64,000 nt of DNA from Gammaproteobacteria bacterium MOLA455 (GTDB taxonomy: Bacteria; Pseudomonadota; Gammaproteobacteria; Pseudomonadales; Porticoccaceae). The notes under the pieces are model-generated. The model saw only the letters and a list, made by a program, of their open reading frames with translations. It was not told the origin of the DNA and searched no databases. This document shows, one piece after another, positions 8,694 to 37,255 of this stretch (its first letter is position 1; the number at the start of each line of letters is the position of its first letter). The position numbers and the translations under genes are program-made. The DNA lies in the NCBI GenBank assembly GCA_000511875.1, contig AZIN01000001.1:584616-648615 (forward strand), in the 5' to 3' direction.

Positions 8694-8821
8694 AGCCGCC
8701 TCTTGGGAGTGATTTACTCTTTGCAGCAAGGACAATAGCGACTTGTAGTGGTGAAATCTAGAGTCAGTTGAGTTTTAGGCCAACCAGTTACCCCGTATAA
8801 TTCTGAACTCATACAAATTGT

Positions 8822-8881: not shown

Positions 8882-8898
8882 GAGACAGTGAAGACCGT

Positions 8899-8938
8899 GG
8901 TAGTGAAGTTGGTAGTAGTGAAGTTGGTAGTAGTGAAG
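8899..8938. repeat. 15 bp tandem repeat
   Basis: The unit TAGTGAAGTTGGTAG is repeated about 2.5 times without mismatch. It lies right after the REP-like inverted repeat and downstream of the acyl carrier protein gene. The 15 bp period is a multiple of three, but no plausible coding frame runs through it. Confidence 0.7.
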
Positions 8939-8985
8939 CGGCATCAGATAGATCCTCATCAGACAACGTTTCACTTGGCAGATTG

Positions 8986-9258: not shown

Positions 9259-9711
9259 AGCCACCTCAGCCTCATGCGGCATTACTTCATCCGCAACGCC
9301 AGATACCCACTCACTTGCTCCATTCATGGCAGTCTACCTTATGCTTATTAGCTTACTTATGAGTTCAAAAAATCGGCGTTCTATTAACGACACTGCCTTT
9401 AGTATAGGCAACATCTCTCCAAAATCTGTTACAAATAAGCCGCATATTTTCCCATAGGTGACACCAATATCGCAGACCAGGGCGATCGCCAACACGAGCC
9501 CTAGAACGTCTAACCGCGCCCCGATTATCTCTACCCAACTATAGGCGATGACTTAAGCCCTGACGGACAAAGCGGTTAAATTTCTCATTGCGGCGCGTCA
9601 AATGGTGCTAAATACACCGTTGTTTAGACTGTAAAGAGTGCTTTGATAGCGTAATCAGTGGCCCACAGACCCTACCTAGTAGGACTCCCTAGGGGCTGTT
9701 TTTTACCCTGC
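9259..9711. other. Long intergenic stretch left of the tRNA-Lys repeats
   Basis: About 450 bases with no convincing gene on either strand. It includes one GGCGATCGCC palindrome (9481) and the short inverted repeat CCTAGTAGGACTCCCTAGG near 9676-9693. The upstream promoter of the acyl carrier gene should lie near 9260-9400. Nothing else was recognised. Confidence 0.4.
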
Positions 9712-9810
9712 GGGCGCCTTTGGCGTCCAAAATGCATTCGCATTTTGTCGAATGGTGGTTCTTTCCAGACGAACCCGTCGGACAAATAAAAAAGCCACCC
9801 AATGGGTGGC
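9712..9810 (-). repeat. tRNA-associated 99 bp direct repeat, copy 1
   Basis: It is identical to 9883-9981 except for one base (T/C in GAAYGGTGG), with an offset of 171 bp. It contains the palindrome AAAATGCATTCGCATTTT and ends in the terminator stem GCCACCC/GGGTGGC, which here is not followed on the outer side by the T-rich tract. Translated, it gives a spurious protein-like string (GWLFYLSDGFVWKEPPF) that is also seen, from memory, as false ORFs beside tRNA genes of other marine gammaproteobacteria. Confidence 0.85.
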
Positions 9811-9848
9811 AGATCTGTGGATGCTGGAGGAGTGGGTGATGGATTGAT

Positions 9849-9873
9849 AGATAGCAGCTTTGGGCTGCTATCT
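9849..9873. other. Perfect 10 bp hairpin between the two repeat copies
   Basis: AGATAGCAGC and GCTGCTATCT are perfectly complementary around a 5-base loop. The hairpin is followed directly by a CCC-TTCG-GGG tetraloop hairpin (9876-9885). It lies where a second tRNA would be expected if the tRNA plus its flank had been duplicated. The decamer GTGATGGATT at 9836-9845 also matches the tRNA T-arm at 10004-10013. Confidence 0.55.
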
Positions 9874-9882
9874 ACCCCTTCG

Positions 9883-9981
9883 GGGCGCCTTTGGCGTCCA
9901 AAATGCATTCGCATTTTGTCGAACGGTGGTTCTTTCCAGACGAACCCGTCGGACAAATAAAAAAGCCACCCAATGGGTGGC
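9883..9981 (-). repeat. tRNA-associated 99 bp direct repeat, copy 2
   Basis: The second copy of the 99 bp element, directly next to the tRNA-Lys 3' end. Its last part forms the tRNA's terminator. The 171 bp offset between copies is close to the sum of one element (99) and one tRNA (75), as expected from tandem duplication followed by decay of one tRNA. Confidence 0.85.
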
Positions 9982-9991
9982 TTTTTTATTT
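9957..9991. terminator. Symmetric terminator of tRNA-Lys
   Basis: The stem AAAAAAGCCACCC/GGGTGGCTTTTTT around AAT, with A-run and T-run on opposite sides, works in both directions. On the minus strand it lies a few bases after the tRNA 3' end. Confidence 0.8.
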
Positions 9992-9994
9992 GTA

Positions 9995-10069
9995 TGGTGG
10001 GCCGTGATGGATTCGAACCATCGACCAATTGGTTAAAAGCCAACTGCTCTACCGCTGAGCTAACGGCCC
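9995..10069 (-). tRNA. tRNA-Lys (anticodon UUU)
   Basis: A 75-base cloverleaf read on the minus strand. It starts GGGCCGTTAGCTCAGCGGTA, has the anticodon loop CTTTTAA (anticodon TTT) and the T-loop TTCGAAT, and ends with encoded CCA. Acceptor, D, anticodon and T stems all pair. It lies just after queC, the same place as in Pseudomonas aeruginosa, where this tRNA gene is a known integration site for PAPI-1/pKLC102-type elements. No integrase or island is present here. Confidence 0.95.
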
Positions 10070-10108
10070 TTTAAAGAGGTGCGTATCATACTGACCAGCT
10101 GCGAGATT

Positions 10109-10789
10109 TCAAGCGTTTTTTTGATATCTGGTTGTGTCATTTATCCCAGCTTGCTCGAAGCCTTGTCGGCGCAGTCGGCAGCTTTCACATTTACCGCAGG
10201 CTTGGCCTTCTGAATCAGCCTGATAACAGGAAACTGTGGCGCTGTAATCAACCCCTAGGGCCACTCCAGACTGTACGATTTGCCCCTTGGTCATATTGAT
10301 AAGCGGGGCGTGAATAGTTAACTTCTGCCCTTCAACAGCGGCCTTGGTGGCTAGGTTGGCCATGGTTTCAAAGGCTTTTATAAACTCGGGGCGACAGTCT
10401 GGGTAGCCAGAGTAGTCAACGGCATTAACGCCGAGAAAGATATCGTTGGCGCCGAGTACTTCGGCCCAGCCTAGGGCGATGGAGAGAAATACTGTGTTGC
10501 GCGCTGGTACATAGGTAATAGGTATACCTGTTGTTTCGGATTCGGGTATTTCGATACTGCTGTCGGTCAGGGCTGATCCGCCAATACTACCGAGATCCAG
10601 TTTCACTACTTTGTGAGCGTGAACTGTCATTAACTCAGAGATTTTTTGAGCAGCAACCAGTTCTGAGCGATGACGCTGGCCATAATCGAAACTGAGGGTG
10701 TAGCAGTCATAGCCTTGGCTTTTGGCCATTGCCACTACGGTGGTGGAATCCAGTCCGCCAGATACGAGAATTACAGCTTTCTTTGACAT
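10109..10789 (-). CDS. queC: 7-cyano-7-deazaguanine (preQ0) synthase
   Basis: A 226-residue ATP-dependent amidoligase that converts 7-carboxy-7-deazaguanine and ammonia to preQ0 in queuosine biosynthesis. The PP-loop SGGLDS lies at residues 10-15. The C-terminal cysteines that bind zinc are visible in [17 protein letters not shown]. Length is normal. It sits downstream of queE with a gap of about 40 bases and probably belongs to the same transcript, which continues to tRNA-Lys. Confidence 0.95.
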
Positions 10790-10829
10790 GCTTTTTCGAT
10801 TGTCCTTGTTGAGTACTTGTTACTTGCAG

Positions 10830-11480
10830 CTAGTGGCCGGGTTGGTCGCCAAAAATATATTTATGGGTCTGAATCTGCATGCGCAGATTGAGCTTGTCAT
10901 GGAGCATCCATTTGGCCAGTTGCGCCGGTGGCAAGACGCCTTGGCTGGGTGAGAAGAGTATTTCAGCTACTCTGTCCTGTAAGCCTAGCTCGTCGATTTT
11001 CATGCAGCTCCAGTCATAATCCTGGCGATCACAGATAACAAACTTAACTTCGTCATGAGGCAAAAGATAGTCGATATTGCCATAGAGGTTTTTAGATACT
11101 TCCCCCGAGCCAGGTGTTTTTAGATCGACAATTTTAAATACCCGTGGATCTACGTCATCTATTGGCAGTGCGCCGCTGGTTTCTAGGGATACGCGATAAC
11201 CCAGATCGCAGAGTCTTTCCAACAGCTCAATGCACTGAGGCTGGGCTAAGGGCTCGCCACCGGTAACGGTGACATATTTGGCGCCATAGTCGGCTACGGT
11301 GCTGAGAATAGCACTGAGGGTCCATTTGCTACCGCCTTCAAAGGCGTAAGCGGTGTCGCAGTAGCCACAGCGCAGTGGACAACCGGTGAGCCGGACAAAG
11401 ACGGTAGGCAGGCCTACGCTGCTGGTTTCACCCTGCAGTGAATGGAATATTTCGGTAATACGAAGTTCGGTTTCGGGCAT
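10830..11480 (-). CDS. queE: 7-carboxy-7-deazaguanine synthase
   Basis: A 216-residue radical SAM enzyme that makes 7-carboxy-7-deazaguanine from 6-carboxy-tetrahydropterin. The cluster-binding cysteines lie in CPLRCGYCDTAYAF (about residues 34-47), and the SAM-binding region is VTVTGGEPLAQP. The N-terminus LRITEIFHSLQGET is typical. It is located between cpoB and queC, as in Pseudomonas. Confidence 0.94.
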   Translation of the reverse strand: MPETELRITEIFHSLQGETSSVGLPTVFVRLTGCPLRCGYCDTAYAFEGGSKWTLSAILSTVADYGAKYVTVTGGEPLAQPQCIELLERLCDLGYRVSLETSGALPIDDVDPRVFKIVDLKTPGSGEVSKNLYGNIDYLLPHDEVKFVICDRQDYDWSCMKIDELGLQDRVAEILFSPSQGVLPPAQLAKWMLHDKLNLRMQIQTHKYIFGDQPGH

Positions 11481-11533
11481 GTGATTATTTTCTGGTTGCT
11501 AACGCGAGGTGTTAAATGGCGGATTGCGAGTAA

Positions 11534-12349
11534 TTAAAAATTATTTTTTAGATAACTCTGAGCTTTACTGGCAGCACCACCCGTACCTTTCGAGGCTTTT
11601 TCCAGTAGGTCAAGGGCACGATCTGTCTCTCCCAGCTGGTGGTATATTTTGCCGAGTTTAAAGGTCGCGTCCATCGCCTTGCCATGATTTTGGTGTTGCT
11701 CGACTACTAGAGTGAAGGCCTGGCGGGCCATTTCATCCTGTCCTTGAAGTAAGTAGATCTCTCCGAGCCAATAATAGGCATTGGCTGTGTACGGGCTCGC
11801 TGGATAGTCAATAACATGCTGTTTAAAAGCCAGGGCCGCAGCGTTGATATCACGTTCTTTGAGCAGCAGGTTGGATGCCTGTGCATAGTTTTGTGCGATC
11901 TCTTGATTGTTGATGATCGGTGCAATTGATGGGGGCTGAGACTCTGCATCCAGGGCCTGTTCTAAAGGCTGCTCTTGAATAACCTCATCGGGCGATCCGG
12001 CTATCACTGCTGGCGTCTGGTTATCGGCATCGACCGCAAACTCATCCGGTGTGGCGCCAGAAAGCAGTGCACTGAGCCGTCGATCTAGATCTAGGTAATC
12101 GTCCATCTGGCGCTGCTTAACGCGCTGTAACTCATAGCTGAGCTGCTCTACCAAGCCGCGTAGTTCGCGCACTTCATTTTGTATCATCTGTGACTGGTTA
12201 TAACGGCCATCAGCTGGCTGAGCCGATGGTGTTGAGACGCCGTAGGTCAGATCCACTACGGGTGCGGTCTGGGCTACCACATTGCTGGCTAAGACTGGCA
12301 ATAGCAGAGAGGTGGCAAGAGCAATGACCGATACAATAGAAGATTTCAT
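11534..12349 (-). CDS. cpoB: Cell division coordinator CpoB (YbgF)
   Basis: A 271-residue periplasmic protein of the Tol-Pal system. A signal peptide covers about residues 1-26 (cleavage near VVAQ). A trimerising coiled coil follows (about 50-97, VRELRGLVEQLSYELQRVKQ), then an acidic linker, then three or so TPR repeats (about 150-271: ANAYYWLGEIYLLQGQ, ATFKLGKIYHQLGE). CpoB links outer-membrane constriction with peptidoglycan synthesis by binding TolA and PBP1B. It is last of the tol-pal genes and precedes queE. Confidence 0.92.
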   Translation of the reverse strand: MKSSIVSVIALATSLLLPVLASNVVAQTAPVVDLTYGVSTPSAQPADGRYNQSQMIQNEVRELRGLVEQLSYELQRVKQRQMDDYLDLDRRLSALLSGATPDEFAVDADNQTPAVIAGSPDEVIQEQPLEQALDAESQPPSIAPIINNQEIAQNYAQASNLLLKERDINAAALAFKQHVIDYPASPYTANAYYWLGEIYLLQGQDEMARQAFTLVVEQHQNHGKAMDATFKLGKIYHQLGETDRALDLLEKASKGTGGAASKAQSYLKNNF

Positions 12350-12461
12350 GGCGAGTAGAGAATAATCCTGTTTATAACAAATAGAGAAACGGCCAGAGTA
12401 TATCGCAACCCCGGCCGCACACTAAAATCATTTGACTTAGGTTAACCAGCCAAAGGATTTT

Positions 12462-12962
12462 TTACTTCAGTTCAACTCGACGGTTGAGGCCCCAGGCATC
12501 ATCGTTGCTGCCATAAGCTGCTGCGCGTTCTTCGCCGTAGCTGATAACTTCGACCAAACCGGGAGAAACACCTTGTAGAACCAGGAATTCCTTAACTGCA
12601 TTGGCGCGTCGCTCGCCGAGTGCCATGTTGTACTCGCGAGTGCCGCGCTCATCGGCATGACCTTCGAGACGCACATTGCGCGGGCTGTTCTGCAGTGATG
12701 CAGAGTGCTCGAGCAGCGCTGCGCGGGACTCAGGCTTGAGCAAGGCTTTGTCGAAGTCAAAATAGAATACCGTGTCGGCACTCATCACTTCAACAGTGGC
12801 GTCGTCAATTGCCGAGGTATCAACCTGGCCAGTCTGTACAGACGTATCTTCAATATCCGTTGAAGTCTGCTGCTCTTCTACTACTGGATTGCTACTGCAA
12901 CCGGTCAAAACTGCAGCTAGAAGCAGCGTACTAAGGCCCGATTTGATAAAAGATGTTTTCAT
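12462..12962 (-). CDS. pal: Peptidoglycan-associated lipoprotein
   Basis: A 166-residue outer-membrane lipoprotein. The lipobox LTGC marks acylation at about Cys 22, followed by a Glu/Asp/Thr-rich linker. The OmpA-like domain (about residues 60-166) contains the diaminopimelate-binding motifs YFDFDKALL and LEGHADERGTREYNMALGE. Pal anchors the outer membrane to the wall and is released by TolB. The start at 12962 has AGGAG six bases upstream; the frame could extend to 12995 but without support. Confidence 0.95.
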   Translation of the reverse strand: MKTSFIKSGLSTLLLAAVLTGCSSNPVVEEQQTSTDIEDTSVQTGQVDTSAIDDATVEVMSADTVFYFDFDKALLKPESRAALLEHSASLQNSPRNVRLEGHADERGTREYNMALGERRANAVKEFLVLQGVSPGLVEVISYGEERAAAYGSNDDAWGLNRRVELK

Positions 12963-13119
12963 TTGAAACTCCTGATTTGCAAAGATGTTAATCATCGTAA
13001 GGTTGTACTGTTTGTACTGTTTGTAATTCTATAAGTCTTTTGCCTGTGTATGGCCTTAAATAAGCCACGTCCTATAAGCAACTCGCTTAGACCTGCAACT
13101 AACAGGTTACCCAAAAAGC

Positions 13120-14430
13120 TTAACGCAAAAATGGCGACCATGCTGGCTCTCTCACATCTCCGCGACTGGACGGCAATACGTAGCGCACTCCGGCGTCCAA
13201 TGATACAGCAGCTAGAACCCCGCGGTCACCCTGTTTAGTGGCATACATTAGCATAGCCCCATTGGGCGCCACCGTCGGAGATTCATCTAGTCTGGTTTCG
13301 GTCAGTTCAATCATTCGGCCTGTCTTGAGATCGAACGAGGCTATGTGAAAAGTGTCTCGCAGACGATGCACCATGGCCATTGTGCGGCCGTCTGGCGCCA
13401 GACTTGGGCGAGCGTTGTAGTTGCCGCGGAATGTTAGGCGCTCAGTGGCCTTGCTGGCAATGTTTAATTTATATATTTGAGGGGTGCCGCCACGATCTGA
13501 GGTAAACAACAGATGTTTACCATCGGGCATCCAGGTGGGTTCTGTATCAATAGCAAAGTGCCGGGTTAGGCGGGAAAATTTCTTGCTCTGCAGATCCAGC
13601 AGATAGATCTCCGGGTTGCCGTCTTTGGACAGCACTAGCGCCATCTGGGTGCCATCGGGAGACCATGAGGGTGCGCCGTTAAGACCAGTGAAATTTGTTA
13701 ACTGCTCCCGCTGAGCGCTGACCAGGTTCTGGCGAAAAATCGCTGGGCGACCGGTTTCAAAAGACACATAGGCGAGCTCTTTGCCATTGGCAGACCAGGC
13801 TGGAGACATAATCGGTTCGCCGGATTCCAAGACTAGCTTCTCCCGGGCACCGTCGGCATCGGCAACATTTAATCTGTAGGTGTACAGGTCATTACTGCGT
13901 ATGGCGGTAACATAGGCGAGTCGCGTGGAAAAGGCACCGCGGATGCCGGTGATTTCCTCATAGACTTTGTCACTGATGAGGTGGGCTAGATCGCGCATCT
14001 GGTTGATGGAGCCGCTAACCTTGTGGGTAAATACTGTTTTTTGGCCGCTGACATTTAATAGGCTAAATTCTATTTGATAGCGACCTTCGGCTATGGCGCG
14101 CATATTTCCGACAACCAGATACTCAGCGCCCAAAAGACGCCAGTCGCGGTAGTAGACCTCTGAAGCCGAACTCGGAAAGGCGAGCATATCGCGGCGTTCC
14201 ATGGGGGCGAACAGACCGCTGCGAGCCAGGTCGGCTTCGACAATAGAGCTGATATCCTCAGAGGACTGGATAGCGGCCATGGCGATGGGCGCTATGGCAA
14301 TCTTGGTCGGCTGGTCATTGCCTTGAGTCACTCGGATAACCAGTTCGCTGTAGCTTGGAGAGGCAACCGCTAACAGCAATGCGACCAGCAGTCCGCGAAC
14401 GATTAACGATTTGGCTATTCTAACTGTCAT
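13120..14430 (-). CDS. tolB: Tol-Pal system translocation protein TolB
   Basis: A 436-residue periplasmic protein. A signal peptide (about residues 1-28, [15 protein letters not shown]) precedes the N-terminal domain and a six-bladed beta-propeller whose repeats show WSPDG/WMPDG/LAPDG motifs. It binds Pal and the TolA C-terminus and relays proton-motive-force-driven movement to the outer membrane. Length and order (after tolA, before pal) are normal. Confidence 0.95.
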
Positions 14431-14442
14431 GACGTCTCCACC

Positions 14443-15198
14443 TTATAATCTGAGATCTTCGGGACTAAATGCAACATCCACCTGGCGAAATTTGCGTTCA
14501 AATAGATCCGGCTTCATGCCCTGCAATTCAACAAATTGTTCTACTTTTAATGCTGCCTGCTCCACAGACCGATCAAAGGCCGTATCACCGCTGGATGTCA
14601 GTATGGTGACGCCTACTATTCGCCCAGTGGGCACCAGACGGATGCGGATCAAGGTCTCCATACCAAGTCGTGCGCTGGGGGGACGGCTCCAGTTCTCCGA
14701 CAGGCGCTGCTGAATAAGCTGGCGATAACTGTTGGCGACGCGCTCATCTTCCTGAGCATTAATCTCGGCCTGCTCTGCTGCGACAGCCTCGGCAAATTCT
14801 GTCTCTATACGTTTGCGCTCGGCTTCTTTGGCAGCTTCTTGCTCATCTCTGAGGCGCTGCTCTTCAGCAAGGCGCAAAGCTTCTAAACGTTTTTTTTCAC
14901 TCAGCGCTGCAATACGTTCTTGCTCACGCTTTTTATCTTGAGCTTTTTTCTGCGCTGCGAGCTTGTCTTTGCGTTTCTTCGCCTCGCGCTTCTGCTTAGC
15001 AATATCCGCCTTCGGCTTGGCCTTTGCTTGAGCGACTTTTTTCGGCGCCAATTCCACTAGCTTAGCCTCAATATACTGGGGCTGAATCATTACTCTGGTA
15101 GTTTCAGGCTCCCAGCCGACAAAGAGTATCGCAAGCAACCCTAAGTGCAGTGCGAGACTGACCAGAACGGCGACTGAGTAACTGAAAAAACTGCCCAT
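14443..15198 (-). CDS. tolA: Tol-Pal system protein TolA
   Basis: A 251-residue inner-membrane protein. One N-terminal helix (about residues 5-28) is followed by a long Lys/Glu/Ala helical domain (about 45-160) and a small C-terminal TonB-like domain (about 165-251). It transduces TolQR motor energy to Pal and TolB. The ATG at 15198 lies one base after the tolR stop codon, so coupling to tolR is likely. A TTG at 15231 is a less likely start. Confidence 0.92.
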   Translation of the reverse strand: MGSFFSYSVAVLVSLALHLGLLAILFVGWEPETTRVMIQPQYIEAKLVELAPKKVAQAKAKPKADIAKQKREAKKRKDKLAAQKKAQDKKREQERIAALSEKKRLEALRLAEEQRLRDEQEAAKEAERKRIETEFAEAVAAEQAEINAQEDERVANSYRQLIQQRLSENWSRPPSARLGMETLIRIRLVPTGRIVGVTILTSSGDTAFDRSVEQAALKVEQFVELQGMKPDLFERKFRQVDVAFSPEDLRL

Positions 15199-15199
15199 A

Positions 15200-15622
15200 T
15201 TAATTTGCTGGTGGCTCCGTGACCAAACCAACAGAGGGGGCTCCGGCGGCCTGTAGCTCGCTCATCAAATTAACCACTACGCCATAATCGACCTTGCTGT
15301 CACCCCAAACCAGTACTGGAGTTTTCGGCGTCTGACGAAGTATTTTTGCAACTCGGTCTTTGATCACCTCAAGACTCTGACCCCGATTCTCGCCTTTCAC
15401 ATCGATCCAGTAACTACCATCAGCTTTAATCGAAACAATAAAGGGCTCTTGGTCCTTGGCATCCATAGGCGCTGAATTGGCCTCGGGCAGGTCCACCTTG
15501 ACGCCCTGCATCAGCAGCGGCGCCGTGATCATAAATACCACCAGTAATACCAGCGTCACGTCTATATAGGGTACGACGTTTATCTCGGCAACCAGTTTTC
15601 GTTTTGTTCGTTTTGTCTTCAC
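15200..15622 (-). CDS. tolR: Tol-Pal system protein TolR
   Basis: A 140-residue ExbD/TolR-family protein. One membrane helix near residues 18-38 carries the essential aspartate (Asp 21 in VPYIDVTLVLLVVF) that takes part in proton flow. The rest is periplasmic and ends in a fold that can bind peptidoglycan. It works with TolQ as the motor that energises TolA. Confidence 0.95.
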   Translation of the reverse strand: MKTKRTKRKLVAEINVVPYIDVTLVLLVVFMITAPLLMQGVKVDLPEANSAPMDAKDQEPFIVSIKADGSYWIDVKGENRGQSLEVIKDRVAKILRQTPKTPVLVWGDSKVDYGVVVNLMSELQAAGAPSVGLVTEPPAN

Positions 15623-15670
15623 TTATCGAGCCTCAAAAGCTTATCCATTTGCTAACTGCGCTTGAGCCAA

Positions 15671-16345
15671 TTAGTTGGCGCGAATCTGGCGGTGCAAAAT
15701 ACTCGAAAACTCCTCGGCGAAGGTTTCGTAGCTGCTGTTCATGGTCTCCACTATGGCGGCATAGCGGTTATAGGCTATGAGTGCGGGAATCGCGGCAAAC
15801 AGACCCATGGCGGTGGCGATCAGTGCTTCCGAGATTCCGGGAGCCACTGTAGCTAGGGTTGCCTGTTGCACCATGGCGAGGCCACGGAAAGAGTTCATAA
15901 TTCCCCAGACTGTGCCAAAAAGACCTATATAGGGGCTTACTGAGGCGACACTAGCAAGAAATGGTAGGCTGATATTGAGTTTTTCATCTTCCCGGGATAG
16001 AGCCACACGCATGGCGCGATCAGCGCCTTCCATGATCGCGTCGGGATCGGATTTGTCGGTTTGGGCTAGACGGTTAAACTCACGAAAGCCGGCGCGAAAG
16101 ACATTTTCTACACCGTCTCGGCCGCCATGTTCTTGGGCTTCTTGAGTGAGCTCGCTGTAAAGTTTGTTGAGATCTACGCCAGACCAGAAGGCATCTTCAA
16201 ACTGACGGAATCCACGCTGGGCGGCGTTGAGAAAAATCCCTCGCTGCACAATCATCATCCACGACATAACTGAGGCGATAAACAAAGTCCCCATTACAAT
16301 TTGCACTAGTACGCTGGCGTTAGAGATGAGGTGCCAAATGGACAT
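15671..16345 (-). CDS. tolQ: Tol-Pal system protein TolQ
   Basis: A 224-residue inner-membrane motor subunit with three helices (about residues 12-35, 125-150, 160-190) and a cytoplasmic loop between the first and second. The family motif ATVAPGISEALIATAMGLFAAIPA is present. The ATG at 16345 aligns with E. coli TolQ. A TTG at 16360 has a better-spaced AGGGAG and may be the true start, adding five residues. Confidence 0.93.
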   Translation of the reverse strand: MSIWHLISNASVLVQIVMGTLFIASVMSWMMIVQRGIFLNAAQRGFRQFEDAFWSGVDLNKLYSELTQEAQEHGGRDGVENVFRAGFREFNRLAQTDKSDPDAIMEGADRAMRVALSREDEKLNISLPFLASVASVSPYIGLFGTVWGIMNSFRGLAMVQQATLATVAPGISEALIATAMGLFAAIPALIAYNRYAAIVETMNSSYETFAEEFSSILHRQIRAN

Positions 16346-16445
16346 GTTTTCTTCTATCAACTGTATAACTCCCTGTTTAGCTAAATTGGGTTTTTAAATT
16401 CTTTTATTACACGAGCTTATTAAAACCTTTGGTTAACGCTCGAGA

Positions 16446-28164: not shown

Positions 28165-29889
28165 ATGCGCGCCAGCCAATACCTGATTTCAACAAAAAAA
28201 GAATCTCCCGCCGATGCTGAAGTCATCAGCCATCAATTGATGCTGCGTGCCGGTATGATCCGCAAAGTTGCCTCTGGACTCTATACCTGGCTGCCTCTTG
28301 GTCTGCGCGTATTTCGCAAAGTTGAAGCCATTGTTCGTCAAGAGATGGACAGATCCGGTGCATTAGAAGTGATGATGCCCGTAGTACAACCCGCCGACCT
28401 CTGGGAAGAATCTGGACGCTGGGGACAGTTTGGCCCCGAATTACTGCGTATCAAGGACCGTCATGGTCGCGAGTTCTGCCTCGGGCCGACTCACGAAGAA
28501 GTGATCACCGACATTGTGCGCAATGAAATTCGCAGCTACAAACAGTTGCCGGCTAACTTCTATCAAATCCAAACCAAGTTTCGCGATGAGCGCCGTCCAC
28601 GATTTGGTGTTATGCGCACCAGAGAGTTTTGCATGAAGGATGCCTATTCCTTTCATACAGACAATGTGTCACTGCAAGAGACTTACGACCTGATGTACAA
28701 GACCTATTCAACGATCTTCGATCGCACCGGTCTGGTCTATCGCGCAGTGTTGGCCGACACCGGCAGCATCGGTGGCAGTGTCTCCCATGAATTTCATGTG
28801 TTGGCAGATTCCGGGGAAGACGCAATCGTCTTTTCCAGCGAGAGTGATTACGCCGCTAATATAGAGAAAGCTGACGCACTGGCACCCAGCGAAACAGCCC
28901 TGCCCGGCACAGAGGAAATGGCCGAATTGGCCACTCCGGGCGTGCACACGATTAAGCAGCTCTGCGAGTTTATCGACACTAGCGCTGAGAAAACGCTAAA
29001 GGCCCTAATTGTTAGCGCCGAAGATAAAGAGGGTAAAACTCAACTCTATGGTCTGATGATCCGTGGTGATCATGAGCTCAATGAAGTCAAAGCTCAGCGC
29101 GCCTTGGGTCTCGAAACCGAAGTCACCTTCGCCAGCGAAGAACAGATTAAAAGCACGCTGAACTGCTCACCGGGATCCATTGGCCCGGTTAATCTCAATC
29201 TGCCCACAGTGGTGGATCACTGGGCCGCACAGCTCAGCGACTTTGTCTGTGGCGCCAATCGCGACGGCTATCACCTCACCGGCGTGAACTGGGAGCGCGA
29301 CTGCGGCGAATTTACCGTAGCCGATATTCGCAATGTCATCGCTGGCGATCCAAGCCCAGACGGAAAAGGCGTATTGGAAATTAAGCGCGGTATTGAAGTG
29401 GGCCACATCTTCCAACTCGGCACCAAGTACAGCGAAGCCATGAAAGCCACAGTGCTCGATGAGAACGGTAAAGACCGCGCCATGTCCATGGGCTGCTATG
29501 GTATAGGAGTGAGTCGCATTGTTGCCGCCGCTATAGAACAGAACCACGATGACAACGGCATTATCTGGCCAGAGTCCATCGCACCGTTCCAAATCGCTAT
29601 AGTGCCGATCAATATGCACAAGTCTGAGCTGGTTTCTGAAACCTGTTTGACGCTCTACAACAAATTAGTAAACGCTGGTTATGAAGTGCTATTTATGGAC
29701 GAGCCCAAAGCCCGTCTCGGTGGCATGTTAGCGGATATCGAACTGATTGGTATTCCCCACCGAATCGTTATTGGCGATCGTGGTTTGGCCGAAGGAAATG
29801 TCGAATACCGCAACCGCAGGGAACCAGAAAATCAACATATAGCTATGGATAAGCTGGATGATTTCATTGCCGAGAAAATTACAAAGTAA
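28165..29889 (+). CDS. proS: Prolyl-tRNA synthetase
   Basis: A 574-residue class II synthetase of the bacterial type that contains an editing (INS) domain (about residues 225-400) between motifs 2 and 3. The N-terminus [20 protein letters not shown], the motif-2 region [20 protein letters not shown] and the C-terminal anticodon-binding domain are complete. The start at 28165 matches the family; a frame reaching upstream to 28054 is not supported. Confidence 0.96.
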
Positions 29890-30463
29890 ATATTTATTGT
29901 GGCCACAGTGGATTGCTGTGGCCACGATTCTGCTGTCTATTTCAACCGCCGCAGTATCTCTCGAGAAACCCTCTGTAGACCCAGCACTTTTGTCCCTGCT
30001 TAAACAGGCCGCCGCCGAAGCCGACAGCTTTGACGATCAGTACGACGCCCAAGTGTGGCTGGTGGAAAAAGAGCCGGCACTGGCTCGATTAGTTAAAGAC
30101 CCTGCCCAGCGCATCTTCCTGCTAAGGCTCATTCATAGCGAAGCCACCCGTGCGGGACTGTCTCCTGAAATTGTTCTGGCATTAATTGAAGTGGAAAGTC
30201 ACTTTGACAGCTATGCGGTCTCCTCCGCCGGGGCCCAGGGCATGATGCAAATAATGCCCTTCTGGAAACACGAGATCGGACGTCCAGAAGACAACCTGAT
30301 CAATATACAAACCAACTTGCGCTACGGCTGTACCATCCTCAAATACTATCTCGACCGAGAAAAGGGTAAATTGGCAGACGCCCTAGCCCGCTATAATGGT
30401 AGCCATGGACAATACTGGTATTCAGAGCGGGTCCTCGATAGCTGGGCAAAACACTGGCGCTAG
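29858..30463 (+). CDS. Lytic transglycosylase (SLT family)
   Basis: A 201-residue exported enzyme. The signal/anchor helix is at about residues 14-36 and the SLT lysozyme-like domain at about 85-201. The catalytic glutamate lies in [16 protein letters not shown], followed by the substrate motifs [10 protein letters not shown] and LARYNGS. It cuts peptidoglycan to 1,6-anhydromuropeptides. Its ATG lies inside the end of proS (32-base overlap), so the two genes are probably cotranscribed. Confidence 0.86.
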
Positions 30464-30565: not shown

Positions 30566-31393
30566 ATGAAAGAGCCCAATAACAGCGTCGAGCAGTCTCT
30601 TACCGAACAGGCGCTGTCACCACAGCAGCTACGCAAAAAGATTCGCAGCGGCGAGCACAGCGGTAATACCTCCGGGCATTGCAATGGCTATGTGCAGTGC
30701 AATTTGGTTATTCTGCCTGCTGATTCAGCAGCGGATTTTCTGCAATTCTGTAACAACAACCCCAAACCCTGTCCCCTAATAGCCACATCAGAGCCAGGCG
30801 TATTTAGCCTGCCGACACTGGGTGAAGACATTGATATCCGCACTGATATACCCAGCTATAAAATCTTCGAGCATGGTCTTGTGGTCAGTGAAGTCAGCAA
30901 CATCTCGGCACTCTGGCGAGATGATCTAGTCGCCTTTTTACTCGGCTGCTCCTTTTCATTTGAAGAAGCATTGATTGCCGACGGCCTCGACGTGCGCAAT
31001 GTCAGCGAAGCAGTCAATGTCCCTATGTACAGAACCAATATAGACTGCACCCCCGCCGGTCCTTTTGCCGGTGAGATGGTTGTTAGCATGCGGCCATTTG
31101 TCCCAGAAGACGCACTGCGCGCTGCGGAAATTTGTAAACGCTATCCCTCGGTGCATGGCGAGCCAATCCATTATGCCAACCCAGAACATATAGGCATTGC
31201 TGACATTAACCATCCAGATTTTGGCGATGCGGTAACGATTAAAGACGGCGAGATGCCGCTATTTTGGGCCTGCGGTGTGACACCGCAGGTTGCTTTGGAG
31301 GCAGCGAAGTTGCCCTTTTGTATAACCCATAGTCCTGGTTGTATGCTGGTGACCGATTTGAAGAATAGCGATCTTGCAGTGGAGGTTGAATAG
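30566..31393 (+). CDS. DUF1445/YcsI-family protein (putative D-glutamate cyclase-like)
   Basis: A 275-residue cytoplasmic protein of the DUF1445 (YcsI) family. Its hallmarks are [35 protein letters not shown] and [15 protein letters not shown]. In Bacillus YcsI sits with the kip/pxp genes. In the human enzyme DGLUCY, DUF1445 is the N-terminal half and DUF4392 the C-terminal half; the whole enzyme converts D-glutamate to 5-oxo-D-proline. Family members are often labelled putative hydro-lyase. Start at the ATG; an upstream TTG is in frame. A 450-base gap with a MITE-like element separates it from pxpA. Confidence 0.85.
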
Positions 31394-31844
31394 CTTTTTG
31401 AATTGGAGTGTCTGGTGAACTGGGGGCGATGTTAAAGACAGGCTGGTAGTGAGAGTTTTGAGATCTCTCACATTCGCTTGAGATGACAGAGTTTATCTAT
31501 TTTGCCGACGCTACTTTTTTGTCCTCCCGACAGAGCGCAGCGACGAGGGATCTGCTTAGAGGATGGCACCAGTAACTCAAAAGAAGTATTGAATTGCCTT
31601 CAGCATCAATTAGGCTGTGCTTTTGACTTGATTTGTTACCGCAAAGCGCGAGGACCTGTTTGAGCGATAGCGAGTTCCGCAGCGTAGGTAACAAATCAAA
31701 ACATGCAGTCGATGCTGAAGGCAATTTAATACTTCGCCGCATCGAACTGTTTTAGAGAGCGCTATCTACTGCAAAGCTATCGAATAAAGAGCGATCCAAT
31801 ACAAAGCAACCCGACAACAAACCAGCAGCATTTAGGAACCCAAC
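31394..31844. other. Intergenic region with REP-like motif inside the 5-oxoprolinase cluster
   Basis: About 450 bases without a gene. It holds the 153 bp palindromic element listed separately, an upstream GAGCGCAGCGACGAGGGATCT string (31534) like the REP-type motif near 8824, and TCGCTTGAGATGACAG (31475), which recurs near 42866. The promoter for pxpABC must lie here if DUF1445 transcription ends. Confidence 0.55.
31583..31735. mobile_element. MITE-like 153 bp palindromic element
   Basis: Outer arms of 25 bp (31583-31607 and 31711-31735) match as an inverted repeat at 24 of 25 positions. Inner 13 bp arms TTGATTTGTTACC/GGTAACAAATCAA (31628-31640, 31687-31699) are perfect. The centre (31641-31686) contains GAGGACCTGTTTGAGCGATA. 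There is no coding capacity. The structure is that of a non-autonomous, hairpin-forming insertion; no matching transposase is in the window, and target-site duplications are not obvious. Confidence 0.6.
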
Positions 31845-32579
31845 ATGGCACTACTATTAAATTGCGATCTCGGCGAAAGCTTCGGCGCCTGGACCATGGG
31901 CCTCGACGACCAAGTCATGCCCCATATAGATCAAGCTAATATCGCCTGCGGTTTTCACGCCGGCGATCCAGTGGTCATCAAAAAGACCCTGCTCTCTGCC
32001 AAACGCAACAATGTCATTGTCGGTGCGCATCCCAGCTACCCAGACCTCGCTGGTTTTGGCCGTCGTTCAATGAACCTGCCAGCCATCGAAATCATCGCCA
32101 TAGTTCAATACCAAATCGCCGCCCTCACCGGCATGGCGCAAAATCTCGGTGTCCCCGTGACCTACGTCAAACCCCACGGCGCCCTCTACAACGACATGAT
32201 GGTCAACGGTCATATTCGCAGCGCCATCATGGAAGCCATCGCCGAAACACACCTACCCCTCGCCTTTATGCTTCAGGCGACACCAGATGCCGAAACACAC
32301 CGCGAAGAAGCCAAGATGTTTGGCCTCGAGGTTATCTTCGAAGCCTTTGCCGACCGCTGTTACGACGACAACGGCGCCCTCCTCTCAAGAGCCAAAGAAG
32401 GTGCAGTACACAGCCGTGAAAAAATGCTCGCACAGGTCGAGCAACTGAAAACCGAAGGCTGCGTCACCAGCGTCAGTGGTCACCGCCTTGAACTGCAAGC
32501 TGACTCCCTATGTGTGCATGGCGACAACTCAGAAGGCGTCAAAGCCATCCAAGAAATTCGTCAGCTCATTAATTCGTAA
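31845..32579 (+). CDS. pxpA: 5-oxoprolinase subunit A (LamB/YcsF family)
   Basis: A 244-residue TIM-barrel-like protein with the family motifs NCDLGESFGAW, ANIACGFHAGDP, YVKPHGALYN and CVHGDN. With PxpB and PxpC it forms the ATP-dependent prokaryotic 5-oxoprolinase, which opens 5-oxoproline to glutamate. Full length. Its stop overlaps the pxpB start by one base (TAATG). Confidence 0.93.
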   Translation: MALLLNCDLGESFGAWTMGLDDQVMPHIDQANIACGFHAGDPVVIKKTLLSAKRNNVIVGAHPSYPDLAGFGRRSMNLPAIEIIAIVQYQIAALTGMAQNLGVPVTYVKPHGALYNDMMVNGHIRSAIMEAIAETHLPLAFMLQATPDAETHREEAKMFGLEVIFEAFADRCYDDNGALLSRAKEGAVHSREKMLAQVEQLKTEGCVTSVSGHRLELQADSLCVHGDNSEGVKAIQEIRQLINS

Positions 32580-33283
32580 TGCCTAGTCTGAAAAACATCT
32601 CCATCGCGGGAGAGAATTCTCTGATTGTCAATTTTGGCGATGCGCGCACTCAAATTATTAGCCAGTCAATCGCCGCAGAGGTAGCCGCTACCGCCGCACA
32701 ACTGCGCACCAGTCTCGGCGCGCAGCTGATCGACCTTGTGCCCTCCTACGCTTCCCTGCTAGTGATTTACGATCCCTTTAAAACCGATCATCATGCAGTG
32801 CGCGCCGCTATTCGCCGTGCATTGGCTGACCCCATAGATACAGATATCAGCCAATCCGGAGCATTGGTCACACTGCCGGTTTACTACAGCACTGAGTCAG
32901 GACCTGACCTAAAAGCACTGGCCGACAACGCCGGCCTCTCTATTGAAGCAGTCATCAATATTCACCAGCAATCGGAATACAGCGTCTATGCCATCGGCTT
33001 TGCCCCAGGCTTTGCCTACCTCGGCGAACTTGACCCCCGTATAGCTGCACCGCGACTCGCCACCCCGCGACAAAAAGTCCCTAGAGGTGCAGTTGCAATC
33101 GCCGACCGCCAGACAGCTGTCTATCCGGCAGAGTCGCCAGGCGGCTGGAATCTGATTGGCCTCTGCCCAGAGTTAATGTTCGACCCCAGTGCTGAGCCGA
33201 GCATGCCAGTTCAAGTCGGCGATCGGGTGCGCTTCAACGCCATAGACAGGGAAACCTATCTGGGTATGGGCGGCCTCTTATGA
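32579..33283 (+). CDS. pxpB: 5-oxoprolinase subunit B (KipI-like)
   Basis: A 234-residue protein of the carboxyltransferase C/D domain family. Typical motif: AIGFAPGFAYLGELDPRIA, then PRQKVPRGAVAIADRQTAVY and SPGGWNLIG. In Bacillus the homologue KipI also inhibits the sporulation kinase KinA; here, in a gammaproteobacterium, the metabolic role is expected. ATG overlaps pxpA; its stop overlaps pxpC by four bases. Confidence 0.93.
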   Translation: MPSLKNISIAGENSLIVNFGDARTQIISQSIAAEVAATAAQLRTSLGAQLIDLVPSYASLLVIYDPFKTDHHAVRAAIRRALADPIDTDISQSGALVTLPVYYSTESGPDLKALADNAGLSIEAVINIHQQSEYSVYAIGFAPGFAYLGELDPRIAAPRLATPRQKVPRGAVAIADRQTAVYPAESPGGWNLIGLCPELMFDPSAEPSMPVQVGDRVRFNAIDRETYLGMGGLL

Positions 33284-34245
33284 CAACTAACAGCGGATTT
33301 AAGGTGATTAAGCCAGGTATATTTAGCCTGATTGAAGACGCAGGACGCTTTGGCCAGCACGGTATTGGCCTCACCACTGGCGGCCCCTTGGATAGAGAAG
33401 CCTTTCGCTGGGCTAATCGTCTCTGCGGCGATCAGCAAACCGCTGCCGCTATCGAAATCACCGTCGGCGGTTTGGTTTTAGAATCGACGGTCAATACCAC
33501 TATTGCCGTCACTGGCGCGACTATTCCATTGAGTATCAACAGACAATCCCGAGCGCTATGGCAGAGCCACCAAGTGAAAGTCGGCGATCGCATCGAACTG
33601 GGATTTGCCTCATCAGGCAGTCGTGGCTACCTAGCCGTCGCCGGTGGATTCACCATTAATCCTATTTTCAATAGTGCCGCCACAGTGCCCAGAGAAGCCT
33701 TAGGCGGGTTACATCGCGATGGCACGGCACTGCAAGCCGGAGACTTTATACCCTGTTCACAGAGCCACTCCGCAGCGCAGCAGCGCGTCCCCGATAGCCA
33801 CCGTCCAGACTACAGCAGCAACAGTGCAGTCTTGCGAGTGGTGCTGGGTTACCAGCAACAGGCTTTTAGCAATACTAGTAAACAGCTATTTTTCAGCTCT
33901 GACTATAAGGTCACCGAGAGCAGCGACCGCATGGGTTTCAGACTCAAAGGTCCAGGGATTAAATCGACTCTCGACGGCATTCTCTCTGAAGGCATTTGCC
34001 TTGGTGCTATTCAAGTCCCTGCAGACGGTCAACCCATAGTGCTGCTCAATGATCGTCAAACCATCGGCGGCTACCCCAAACTAGGGTCAGTGCTGTCCCT
34101 CGATATTGGCAAGCTCGCACAACTCTTGCCCGGCGCTGTTCTGCGCTTTGAAGCGATCAGCATAGAGCAGGCGCACAATCTATTACTGCTCGATCAACAG
34201 CGCTTTGCCGACACAGTTCTGGAGCAAGTTGGGCTCGATGAATAA
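33280..34245 (+). CDS. pxpC: 5-oxoprolinase subunit C (biotin-dependent carboxyltransferase-like)
   Basis: A 321-residue CT_A/B-family protein (KipA homologue), partner of PxpB. Motifs include TTGGPLDREAFRWANRLCGD near the start, and later SSDRMGFRLKGP and LLNDRQTIGGYPKLG. Despite the domain name no biotin is used. It ends eight bases inside the start of the DUF4392 gene, so the operon continues. Confidence 0.92.
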   Translation: MTTNSGFKVIKPGIFSLIEDAGRFGQHGIGLTTGGPLDREAFRWANRLCGDQQTAAAIEITVGGLVLESTVNTTIAVTGATIPLSINRQSRALWQSHQVKVGDRIELGFASSGSRGYLAVAGGFTINPIFNSAATVPREALGGLHRDGTALQAGDFIPCSQSHSAAQQRVPDSHRPDYSSNSAVLRVVLGYQQQAFSNTSKQLFFSSDYKVTESSDRMGFRLKGPGIKSTLDGILSEGICLGAIQVPADGQPIVLLNDRQTIGGYPKLGSVLSLDIGKLAQLLPGAVLRFEAISIEQAHNLLLLDQQRFADTVLEQVGLDE

Positions 34246-35074
34246 TCTACTCCTCAGCACCCATATCGAAAACCTTTTAGTGGCGCGCAATCCCCGGGGC
34301 ATGCAAACACTGCAAGCAGCTCTGGTACCCGGTTACTATTTGCGCGCCGCCCAACTGCTGTTAAGTGCTAAAGGGACAGTATTAATCGGCACCGGCTTTC
34401 CCGTTGCGGGCACTTATGAAACCGATGGGCCAGTTGGGGCTATCGCTCTTTATAACGTTTTAGAAACCCTAGGCACCACACCAGTGCTTGTCTGTGGCGC
34501 ACCATTGGCTGATGCTATCTCCAGTGACTTTCGGGTGCACAAAATTAGCGTCGGCGAACCCGCTGTCAGTAAGGTTGAAGCCGAAAATGCCCTGCACCAT
34601 TATCAGCCCTCTCTGGTGATATCTATTGAACGTCCGGGCATGGCCGCAGATGGCAGGTACTACAATATGCGCGGCGAAGATATAAGTTCTGCCTGCGCCA
34701 GCTTCGACTACTTTTTAAGCACCGCCAGTTGTCCCACTATCGGCATTGGCGACGGAGGCAATGAAATCGGTATGGGCAATGTTGCCAGGACTCTTGAACA
34801 GCTCAATATTATCCCCTCAGTCACCTGCTGCGACGAACTGGTTATTGCCGATGTATCCAACTGGGCAGCCCATGGTTTGATCGCTATGCTGTCAGCATTA
34901 AAACAGCAAGATATGCTACTGGGCTGGGATAATTTGGCTACACTGCAATATCTTTCGGCGCGTGGCAGTGTCGATGGCGTGAGTAGAAAAAACAGCCTAA
35001 CCGAGGACAGTTTACGCTCTGATATTAGCGAGAAACTGATTAGAGAGCTGAGAAAACTAGGTGGATTTTGCTGA
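34238..35074 (+). CDS. DUF4392 protein, D-glutamate cyclase catalytic-domain homologue
   Basis: A 278-residue cytoplasmic protein of the DUF4392 (glutamate cyclase) family. Motifs: GTGFPVAGTYETDGPVGAIAL near residues 50-70, SIERPGMAADGRYYNMRGEDI and GIGDGGNEIGMGN. This family is the C-terminal half of human DGLUCY. A role in making 5-oxoproline from D-glutamate fits the neighbouring 5-oxoprolinase genes. The ATG at 34238 overlaps the pxpC stop. A TTG at 34205 would enlarge the overlap and is less likely. Confidence 0.88.
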   Translation: MNNLLLSTHIENLLVARNPRGMQTLQAALVPGYYLRAAQLLLSAKGTVLIGTGFPVAGTYETDGPVGAIALYNVLETLGTTPVLVCGAPLADAISSDFRVHKISVGEPAVSKVEAENALHHYQPSLVISIERPGMAADGRYYNMRGEDISSACASFDYFLSTASCPTIGIGDGGNEIGMGNVARTLEQLNIIPSVTCCDELVIADVSNWAAHGLIAMLSALKQQDMLLGWDNLATLQYLSARGSVDGVSRKNSLTEDSLRSDISEKLIRELRKLGGFC

Positions 35075-35278: not shown

Positions 35279-36136
35279 ATGAGTATTGCGTTTTTAGATG
35301 GCGAATATATGCCCATAGAACAGGCCAAAATATCGCCAATGGATCGCGGTTTTTTGTTCGGTGACGGCATCTATGAAGTGGTGCCCTCCTATGCTGGGAA
35401 AATGGTCGGCTTTGCTCCTCATATAGCGCGCATGCAAGAGGGTCTCGAGGCGATCGGCATTCAGCTGGACTGGTCAGTAGACGACTGGGCTGAACTCTGT
35501 AATCGCTTGATCGCGGAAAATGCTGCCGGCAATTTAGGTATCTATCTGCATGTAAGCCGTGGCACCGACACAAAACGCTTTCACGCTTTTCCAGAAAATG
35601 TAGCGCCGACTGTGTTCGCCTATACTTTTGAAATAGCCCCCGCACCCATAGCGGACAAGCGCACTGTTAAAGCCAAGAAAGTCTCCACCACTCGCGACCT
35701 TCGCTGGGAGCGCTGCCAGATAAAATCCACTGCGCTACTCGGCAATGTGCTGCATTTCCAGCATGGCTACGCCCAAGGCAGTGACGAGACGCTGCTGTTT
35801 AATGCAGACAATCAGCTCACCGAAGCAAGTGCCTGTAATGTCTTTGTTGTTAAAAATGGCACCGTGATAACGCCACCTTTGGACAATCAAAAACTCCCTG
35901 GAATCACCCGCCAGATTATTCTCGATGTACTGCGCAACGATGGCCAGATTGCTGTAGAAGAGCGCATAGTCACCATGGATGAGGTAGCCAATGCAGACGA
36001 AGTCTGGATTACTAGCTCCTCAAAGGAAATCGCCCCGATTACTGAGATCGACGGCAAGCCAGTTGGCGACGGCACCATTGGCGACATCTGGCTGGCGGCT
36101 CAGACGCTCTATTCCGCCGCAAAATTTGATTACTAG
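35279..36136 (+). CDS. dat: D-amino acid aminotransferase (class IV)
   Basis: A 285-residue PLP enzyme of the fold-type IV family. It matches Bacillus-type D-alanine aminotransferase in the N-terminus (SPMDRGFLFGDGIYEVVPSY), the PLP lysine region (RCQIKSTALLGNVL, Lys about 146) and the C-terminus (WITSSSKEIAPITEIDG). It interconverts D-alanine + 2-oxoglutarate and pyruvate + D-glutamate. Because it supplies D-glutamate, it links the neighbouring cyclase/5-oxoprolinase genes to D-alanine use. It starts about 200 bases after the DUF4392 gene. Confidence 0.85.
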   Translation: MSIAFLDGEYMPIEQAKISPMDRGFLFGDGIYEVVPSYAGKMVGFAPHIARMQEGLEAIGIQLDWSVDDWAELCNRLIAENAAGNLGIYLHVSRGTDTKRFHAFPENVAPTVFAYTFEIAPAPIADKRTVKAKKVSTTRDLRWERCQIKSTALLGNVLHFQHGYAQGSDETLLFNADNQLTEASACNVFVVKNGTVITPPLDNQKLPGITRQIILDVLRNDGQIAVEERIVTMDEVANADEVWITSSSKEIAPITEIDGKPVGDGTIGDIWLAAQTLYSAAKFDY

Positions 36137-36178: not shown

Positions 36179-37255
36179 ATGTCCAGACCCACCAGAGCGG
36201 TTATCGACCTTCAGGCACTGCGCCACAACTATCAGTTGGCGCAATCATTGGCACCGGAGTCAAAGACTATCCCCATGGTCAAGGCCAATGCCTACGGCCA
36301 TGGCGCAGTGAAAGTCTCCCGGGTTCTTGAAGATATTGCCCCAGCCTTTGGCGTTGCCTGCATTGAAGAAGCACTGGAACTGCGCGATGCAGGAATTAAA
36401 CAACCCATGCTGCTATTGGAAGGCGCCTTTGAAGCCTCAGAGCTCAAGCTGGCAGCCACTAAAGGCTTCTGGGTGATGGTTGAAAATCATCAGCAAAAAG
36501 AAGCGGTCATTAATGCAGACCTGCCTGCACCCCTAACTGTTTGGCTCGGCGTCGACACCGGCATGCACCGCCTGGGATTTCAGCCTGACGAAATCAATCA
36601 GGTGTATCAAACCCTCAGCAGCAGCCGCAATGTTAGCCAGCCCATCGTCGTTACCTCGCACTTTGCCTGTGCCGATGATTTGCACAGTGATGCGACCGCC
36701 AAGCAAATCGCTACCTTTAAAGCCTGCGCGCCAGTAACTGCACTGCAGAGCCTAGCCAACTCAGCGGCCATTTTGGCCTGGCCCAAAGCTCGGCGGGAAT
36801 GGCAGCGCCCGGGTTATATGCTCTATGGCAACTCACCCTTTGCTGGACCCCAAGAGAATGCCGATAAACTGCAGCCGGTAATGGCATTTGAATCTGCAGT
36901 GATTTCCCTGCGCAGTATTGCTGCTGGTGAGTCCGTGGGCTACACAGCAAACTGGACTGCCGAGCGAGACTCAACTATCGCCACCATTACCGTTGGCTAT
37001 GGCGACGGCTATCCGCGCAATGCCAGCAATGGCACGCCAGTGCTGATAAATGGTGTTCGCTACCCGCTCGTGGGTCGTGTCTCTATGGATATGATTACAG
37101 TCGACGTTACAGAGTTAAGCGACGTTGCCATTGGTGACAAGGCCGTACTCTGGGGCCCAGAGTTGCCGGTCAATGAAGTGGCCAGCTACTGCGGCACCAT
37201 CGGCTATGAACTGCTCACCCGTATACCAGCGCGAGTACCTCGGATTTATTTATAA
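36179..37255 (+). CDS. Alanine racemase
   Basis: A 358-residue fold-type III PLP enzyme that interconverts L- and D-alanine. The PLP lysine is Lys 35 in MVKANAYGHG, the catalytic tyrosine region is SVGYTANW, and the C-terminal beta domain is complete (VGRVSMDMITVDV). It could be the biosynthetic (Alr) or catabolic (DadX) form; position next to the aminotransferase favours a catabolic role. About 40 bases separate it from dat, so cotranscription is likely. Confidence 0.92.
   Translation: MSRPTRAVIDLQALRHNYQLAQSLAPESKTIPMVKANAYGHGAVKVSRVLEDIAPAFGVACIEEALELRDAGIKQPMLLLEGAFEASELKLAATKGFWVMVENHQQKEAVINADLPAPLTVWLGVDTGMHRLGFQPDEINQVYQTLSSSRNVSQPIVVTSHFACADDLHSDATAKQIATFKACAPVTALQSLANSAAILAWPKARREWQRPGYMLYGNSPFAGPQENADKLQPVMAFESAVISLRSIAAGESVGYTANWTAERDSTIATITVGYGDGYPRNASNGTPVLINGVRYPLVGRVSMDMITVDVTELSDVAIGDKAVLWGPELPVNEVASYCGTIGYELLTRIPARVPRIYL

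Follow-up and report, generated by a model that had tools for sequence, protein, structure and literature searches.

A putative two-protein D-glutamate cyclase encoded around a 5-oxoprolinase operon in Gammaproteobacteria bacterium MOLA455

The 64,000-nucleotide stretch of DNA analysed here, hereafter the window, comes from Gammaproteobacteria bacterium MOLA455 (contig AZIN01000001.1, positions 584,616 to 648,615). It carries two genes, DUF1445 and DUF4392, whose products correspond to the two halves of animal D-glutamate cyclase (DGLUCY) and which stand on either side of the genes for the 5-oxoprolinase subunits PxpA, PxpB and PxpC. Comparison with relatives indicates that the two proteins probably act as a two-protein D-glutamate cyclase that is tied to 5-oxoprolinase and sets the D-glutamate pool. 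The observations that carry this proposal are the gene content of the block, the joint presence and joint loss of the two halves, the fusions of DUF4392 to PxpC, the conserved metal residues of DUF4392, and the absence of glutamate racemase (MurI) matches over the cut-off in the genus.

The survey was kept within Proteobacteria and drew on 112 genomes of the family, 50 of the genus (SAR92) and a phylum set of 398. In addition, 80 named loci were used, being the best of 577 confirmed gammaproteobacterial loci, a choice that biases them to near kin. Genomes, loci and genera are given by our G, L and g numbers where they need to be told apart.

Results

A conserved block of seven genes

DUF4392 is carried by 54 of the 112 family genomes. 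Up to the end of each stretch or contig, these retain the order DUF1445-pxpA-pxpB-pxpC-DUF4392-transaminase-alanine racemase, with a few of the genes in broken frames (e.g., G453, G454 and G478). The conserved block is larger than a preliminary description of the window saw: a class IV aminotransferase of the D-amino-acid-transaminase type and an alanine racemase belong to it too. Among the named loci, 70 were readable upstream, with DUF1445 in 65 and pxpA, pxpB and pxpC in 69 each, and 65 were readable 5 kb downstream, with the transaminase in 56 and the alanine racemase in 26; four (Oceanobacter, Marinobacterium) have an alanine-racemase match of 200–219 bits upstream of DUF1445 instead. This gene order is far beyond chance, and the neighbourhood survey proposed in the preliminary description finds DUF1445-pxpABC-DUF4392 recurring across both the family and the named loci.

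Genus g222 separates the block from its surroundings. There the outer flanks change, in that ProS, a lytic transglycosylase-like gene (SLT) and PutA were not found around the block, yet the seven genes stay where present. The persistence of the block despite different outer flanks argues that it is not plain regional synteny. PutA, Lrp, ProS and SLT were rejected as members of the block, since they were not found around it in g222.

The two halves are kept and lost together

Searched genome-wide, 48 of the 112 family genomes have both halves and 57 have neither, with DUF4392 alone in six (G399, G410, G412, G418, G448 and G483) and DUF1445 alone in one (G430); each of the seven mismatches has its cluster truncated at a contig end. 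Joint loss was observed in ten genomes (G417, G426, G431, G436, G438, G439, G452, G455, G456 and G457). In these, pxpABC and the transaminase are kept, the transaminase directly follows pxpC, and no DUF1445 lies ahead of pxpA, so that the places of the two missing halves are 2.4–2.8 kb apart with the intervening genes retained. Searches with tblastn found no remnant of either half at these loci, and neither half was found elsewhere in the ten genomes, which fall into two clades on a tree of the transaminase and racemase (65 rows). On the 55 rows readable on both sides, both halves are present in 41, neither in 14 and one half in none. Four genomes (G472, G479, G463 and G464) have no pxp genes at the locus and no pxpA genome-wide.

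Such joint keeping and loss in close relatives suggests that the halves work as one pair. The partnership supposed in the preliminary description is thus borne out within the family, where the comparative support is strong; outside, the support for it is looser.

DUF4392 is fused to PxpC in part of the family

Sixteen of the 54 family loci have PxpC and DUF4392 in one open frame, 589–621 amino acids long where complete; the frame is interrupted in the pxpC part in G420, and cut by contig ends in G399 and G400. The fused rows of the tree form one clade of 14 (genera g1 and g214) plus a separate row, G428. Parsimony gives three changes, because G420, with its interruption, was scored as unfused. 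Given the clade and the separate G428, DUF4392 seems to have been joined to a 5-oxoprolinase subunit at least twice. Five of the 80 named loci are also fused, and they overlap with the genomes just counted. No DUF1445-DUF4392 fusion was found in the mapped family and named loci. The PxpC-DUF4392 fusions favour a coupling of the cyclase pair with 5-oxoprolinase.

DUF4392 carries the metal site

Residues E61, D63, E131, D172, E176 and D246 of DUF4392 are invariant in 59 aligned sequences, and these six acidic residues match all six ligands of the dinuclear Mn site of TON_0340, a DUF4392 protein. Judged by this conservation, DUF4392 is likely the Mn-dependent catalytic half. Which half is catalytic had been left open; the Mn site now points to DUF4392, and nothing comparable was seen for DUF1445.

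A likely source of D-glutamate

None of the 50 genus genomes has a MurI (TIGR00067) match above the cut-off; two weak matches fall short of it. MurL was rejected as the SAR92 source of D-glutamate: the 44 genomes searched for it include 19 of the genus, and it was found in none of these 19. Of the 64 family genomes that lack MurI, 59 have the transaminase, against 9 of the 48 that have MurI (Fisher p 4e-16, relatedness ignored), with the fragments in G462 and G470 scored as present. Neither gene was found in G400 (at a contig end), G411, G425, G447 and G460. As MurI was not found in the genus, the transaminase is the likely source of D-glutamate for the wall, and the tie of the block to D-glutamate in the preliminary description gains from both the transaminase and alanine racemase in the block and the absence of MurI in the genus. 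In a simple reading, the supply of D-glutamate passed to the transaminase and MurI was lost afterwards. Other enzymes could supply D-glutamate, and DapF, with racemase activity reported in Chlamydia (PMC5885031, as excerpted), is another possible route.

The transaminase has a canonical carboxylate trap (FGDGIYEVVP and RFH) when aligned to D-amino acid aminotransferases of the PDB, the residues having been placed by eye. The motif is described, in the excerpted report, as F26, Y31, V/A33, K/R/P/T35 and RxH (PMC10003956). At the further xYxQ position the enzyme has YLH, not Q. In five genus genomes a second transaminase paralogue, 56–59% identical to that of the window, lies away from the cluster (L151–L155; G412, G443, G419, G450 and G414), and G454 has a partial match with a stop.

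The locus in the window

Positions and profile scores are collected in Table 1. All five genes named in the preliminary description exceed the curated Pfam cut-offs, and the coordinates agree with its claims that the DUF1445 and DUF4392 genes flank a complete pxpABC and that the genes from pxpA to DUF4392 overlap: by 1 base (pxpA/pxpB), 4 bases (pxpB/pxpC) and 8 bases (pxpC/DUF4392). PxpA, PxpB and PxpC are encoded together, with PxpC below the curated equivalog PxpC_5OPro (NF045499; 210.4 bits, cut-off 500). In NCBIfam, DUF1445 is a 'putative hydro-lyase' (400.6 bits, cut-off 324) and DUF4392 has no match at 0.001. DUF1445, DUF4392 and PF02626 (the pxpC type) are each single-copy in the MOLA455 genome. 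The nearest named records among the matches listed are HTCC2207 and SAR92-type Porticoccaceae.

Table 1. Features of the MOLA455 locus (positions in the window)
Feature	Position	Strand	Remarks
Lytic transglycosylase-like gene (SLT)	29858-30463		102 bases ahead of DUF1445
DUF1445 / PF07286 'D-Glu_cyclase'	30566..31393	+	275 aa; animal DGLUCY N-terminal half; Pfam 218.1 bits, cut-off 25
Spacer DUF1445/pxpA	31394..31844	.	451 bases; 25-nt inverted repeat 31583-31607 + 31711-31735
pxpA, 5-oxoprolinase subunit (LamB/YcsF)	31845..32579	+	PF03746 291.5 bits; NCBIfam 335.7 (cut-off 213)
pxpB, 5-oxoprolinase subunit	32579..33283	+	PF02682 226.5 bits; NCBIfam 161.2 (cut-off 145.55)
pxpC, 5-oxoprolinase subunit	33280..34245	+	PF02626 284.9 bits; TIGR00724 256 (cut-off 230.2)
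DUF4392 / PF14336 GLUCM-like_C	34238..35074	+	278 aa; DGLUCY C-terminal half; Pfam 237.1 bits
Class IV aminotransferase, D-amino-acid-transaminase type	35279..36136	+	285 aa; Pfam and NCBIfam
Alanine racemase	36179..37255	+	358 aa; TIGR00492 359.6 bits (cut-off 168)

DUF1445 does not overlap pxpA; the spacer lies between them. L042 has a related stretch in this same position, L043 and L052 have one elsewhere, and in HTCC2207 (L156) DUF1445 and pxpA are close together. Being related to stretches at other places in relatives, the spacer looks like an inserted repeat element. After the alanine racemase come an Lrp-type regulator on the opposite strand and then PutA. The lytic transglycosylase-like gene precedes DUF1445 in many, not all, loci of the genus. 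Wall-type genes are seen near DUF1445 as lytic transglycosylase in SAR92 and as GH3 in Pseudoalteromonas and G320. Peptidoglycan genes as fixed neighbours were rejected as a general link, as the upstream neighbours look varied in 61 named loci (judged by eye from N-termini and some scanned proteins, not a full family scan).

Other settings of DUF4392

Few genomes of the phylum set carry DUF4392 (10 of 398). Outside the family both halves were found in G126, G234, G320, G328 and G348, all five with pxpA, which lies away from the pair in G126, G320, G328 and G348. In two genomes that lack MurI and pxpA, DUF4392 keeps company with a relative of MurL: beside it in L099 (G057, 9517-11941), and in an operon with it, MurD and an unknown 429-amino-acid protein in L100 (G108, 9757-14717). 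These MurL relatives score 267 bits in L100 and 435 bits in L099, below the curated cut-off of 700. The - strand of L103 (G328, 5683-16440) has an open frame of 3586 codons, in a stretch of 70% GC, where a weak glutamate-racemase-like match (55 bits) lies between two matches to DUF4392; this may be a single large protein, or else a long frame spanning several genes.

Seven of the 19 plasmid matches to DUF4392 were examined. An MFS transporter and a dipeptidase lie downstream of the cluster on the Pseudoalteromonas plasmid L246. Distant DUF4392 proteins (25–38% identity) on plasmids of Rhizobiaceae and Rhodobacterales are encoded near serine/threonine dehydratase, RidA and Gfo/Idh/MocA genes, and may act on other substrates. 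On two Rhodobacterales plasmids (L249, 6867-7589; L251, 5099-5839), divergent DUF4392 genes directly adjoin a gene of the Asp/Glu racemase family and one for arylmalonate decarboxylase, which we take to be of the same superfamily as Asp/Glu racemase. On a Sinorhizobium meliloti plasmid (L248, 1350-2165), a 'putative hydro-lyase', the name of the DUF1445 type, lies on the same strand 3.7 kb upstream of a divergent DUF4392.

Discussion

The reading we favour, a two-protein D-glutamate cyclase tied to 5-oxoprolinase, would work as follows. DUF4392 would be the catalytic subunit, with its dinuclear Mn site in what may be a DHH-like fold, and it would require DUF1445 as a partner that perhaps binds the substrate or helps to form the complex. 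The pair would be wired to PxpABC, whose ATP-driven opening would turn 5-oxoproline into glutamate, and the transaminase and alanine racemase would exchange D-glutamate with 2-oxoglutarate, D-alanine and L-alanine. In the SAR92 genus, the transaminase would supply D-glutamate for the wall, the cyclase pair would serve as a valve that removes free D-glutamate, and PxpABC would recover the lactam as glutamate. The joint loss of the halves where the transaminase is the sole evident source of D-glutamate fits a pair that consumes it; the direction, like the reaction and the wall role, is something we infer. The link of the pair to PxpABC made in the preliminary description has held up, through the conserved order and the PxpC-DUF4392 fusions, and the salvage of D-glutamate to L-glutamate that it envisaged takes its place as one of several readings, next to D-glutamate disposal, use of 5-oxo-D-proline and D-glutamate supply.

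A broader idea, which we offer as speculation with a low chance of being right as a whole, is a control of the handedness of glutamate that needs no glutamate racemase. The transaminase and alanine racemase would make the D-glutamate of the wall, and a two-protein cyclase docked on 5-oxoprolinase, or fused to it in some species, would return the surplus via the lactam to L-glutamate. This irreversible, ATP-driven loop would replace the reversible MurI, and some lineages that have to save D-glutamate would drop the pair and keep the rest.

Several points weigh against a D-glutamate cyclase tied to 5-oxoprolinase. A cyclase and an ATP-driven ring opener acting on the same enantiomer make a futile cycle: if PxpABC took the D lactam, it would together with the pair form an ATP-wasting circle unless the two were separated, and if it takes the L lactam only, either the two systems operate side by side or there is a step that inverts the lactam. 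The number of independent joint losses is small, with four changes per half and three supported independent pairs (sign test p 0.25). The company of the genes is also not constant, and strict pairing of the halves may fail outside the family. DUF1445 was not found within 7.5 kb in 5 of the 70 named loci in a search of the locus only (L172, where it sits 9.6 kb upstream, L192, L198, L199 and L221), nor near DUF4392 in G043, G057, G108 and G139, where no genome-wide DUF1445 search was made. Nine of the 65 named loci lack the transaminase within 5 kb, and Pseudoalteromonas plasmids (L246, L252) have GH3-DUF1445-pxpA-DUF4392-transaminase with PxpB and PxpC not beside it. The cluster coexists with MurI in G126, G234 and nine family genomes (part of g222), and is therefore independent of the loss of MurI. 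In the phylum set, MurI is lacking in 5 of 10 DUF4392 carriers and in about 81 of 388 others (p 0.04), where absence, in a count made by eye, comprises 75 genomes with no match at 0.001 and 11 whose E exceeds 1e-12; with absence taken as below the curated cut-off, p is 0.15. As a general rule for DUF4392, MurI absence was therefore rejected across the 398 genomes and kept as a weak lead. The transaminase falls under the curated cut-offs of its two best NCBIfam matches, both D-amino-acid transaminases (TIGR01121, 230 bits against 277.45; NF005209, 236.3 against 320). We know of no activity for either bacterial half. Finally, TON_0340 was reported as a weak Mn phosphatase, and D-glutamate is not named in the excerpted report (PMC5132392).

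Among the other explanations, a net conversion of D- to L-glutamate via the lactam, in which the pair cyclises, one half or a partner inverts the lactam, and PxpABC opens 5-oxo-L-proline with ATP, is unlikely. The PxpC-DUF4392 fusions suggest a product that is handed on, pxpA is present in all five genomes outside the family that were seen with both halves and searched, and a divergent DUF4392 stands beside Asp/Glu racemase family and arylmalonate decarboxylase genes on the two Rhodobacterales plasmids. However, no known glutamate or 5-oxoproline racemase was found among the scanned genes of the block, and mouse DGLUCY is without glutamate racemase activity in the excerpted report (PMC5339696). 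Somewhat less likely still is the use of external 5-oxoproline in both forms, with PxpABC opening the L form and the pair opening the D form to D-glutamate, which the transaminase and alanine racemase would pass on to 2-oxoglutarate and L-alanine. It would account for both systems and the transaminase being together, and the D-glutamate cyclase reaction is reversible in principle; lactam formation, however, is favoured without ATP, and the ten proteins that were scanned in and around the block include no transporter.

We regard as improbable that DUF4392 is no cyclase half and works instead as a phosphatase, disposing of an acyl phosphate such as gamma-glutamyl phosphate that leaks from PxpABC (or MurD in the genomes with MurL). 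Even on AMP, the best substrate of TON_0340, its kcat/KM is just 190 per M per s; DGLUCY acts on D-glutamate itself; and the link to DUF1445 would be left unexplained. Operons do persist within families, and the gene order could in theory be inherited synteny without shared function; this is very improbable, given the changed flanks around a constant block in g222, the occurrence of the block in many gammaproteobacterial orders, and the joint loss of two separated genes.

DUF1445, under its name 'putative hydro-lyase', and DUF4392 are widespread, and we found little work on them outside animals among the literature matches. A pair that is split and jointly lost, together with the fusions, offers a way to learn the role of each half of human D-glutamate cyclase. 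In addition, the system allows the handling of the D lactam by 5-oxoprolinase to be tested, and it bears on how wall D-glutamate is controlled in marine bacteria that lack glutamate racemase. None of the literature matches listed describes a DUF1445/DUF4392 cluster with pxpABC from a bacterium; as far as the literature found goes, three things are new: the loss of both halves together, the fusions of PxpC to DUF4392, and a tie to a D-glutamate supply free of MurI.

Comparison with known systems

The Dat-type D-amino-acid transaminase is a MurI-independent source of D-glutamate. The MOLA455 enzyme shares its canonical carboxylate-trap motif and is present in most family genomes without MurI, and differs in that its gene forms one block with the D-glutamate cyclase halves and 5-oxoprolinase. 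PxpABC (YcsF-KipI-KipA in B. subtilis, PxpTABC in C. glutamicum) has the same three subunits in the same order as MOLA455, which adds DUF4392 and the D-amino-acid genes and has a PxpC under the curated equivalog cut-off. B. subtilis has a PF07286 match, and we take ycsI to be the DUF1445 gene. The excerpted reports place ycsI in the Bacillus pxp operon (PMC10448178) and describe PxpABC for 5-oxo-L-proline (PMC13274462).

TON_0340 of Thermococcus onnurineus, the DUF4392 protein of known structure, is archaeal and was assayed as a phosphatase, and DUF1445 was not found in archaea according to the same excerpt (PMC5132392). Recombinant mouse DGLUCY converts D-glutamate to 5-oxo-D-proline, with neither racemase nor oxidase activity in the excerpted report, and knock-out mice build up D-glutamate in the heart (PMC5339696). 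The homologues of GLUCM_HUMAN reported from the gut are six split and none full (PMC11580864, as excerpted). Animal DGLUCY (mouse 9030617O03Rik, human C14orf159; EC 4.2.1.48) has both domains and the DUF4392 metal residues in common with MOLA455, whose putative cyclase halves are two proteins with the pxpABC genes between theirs, so that 5-oxoprolinase, the transaminase and alanine racemase are all linked to them. As the two domains are not in one polypeptide, the MOLA455 pair is a split counterpart of DGLUCY rather than DGLUCY itself.

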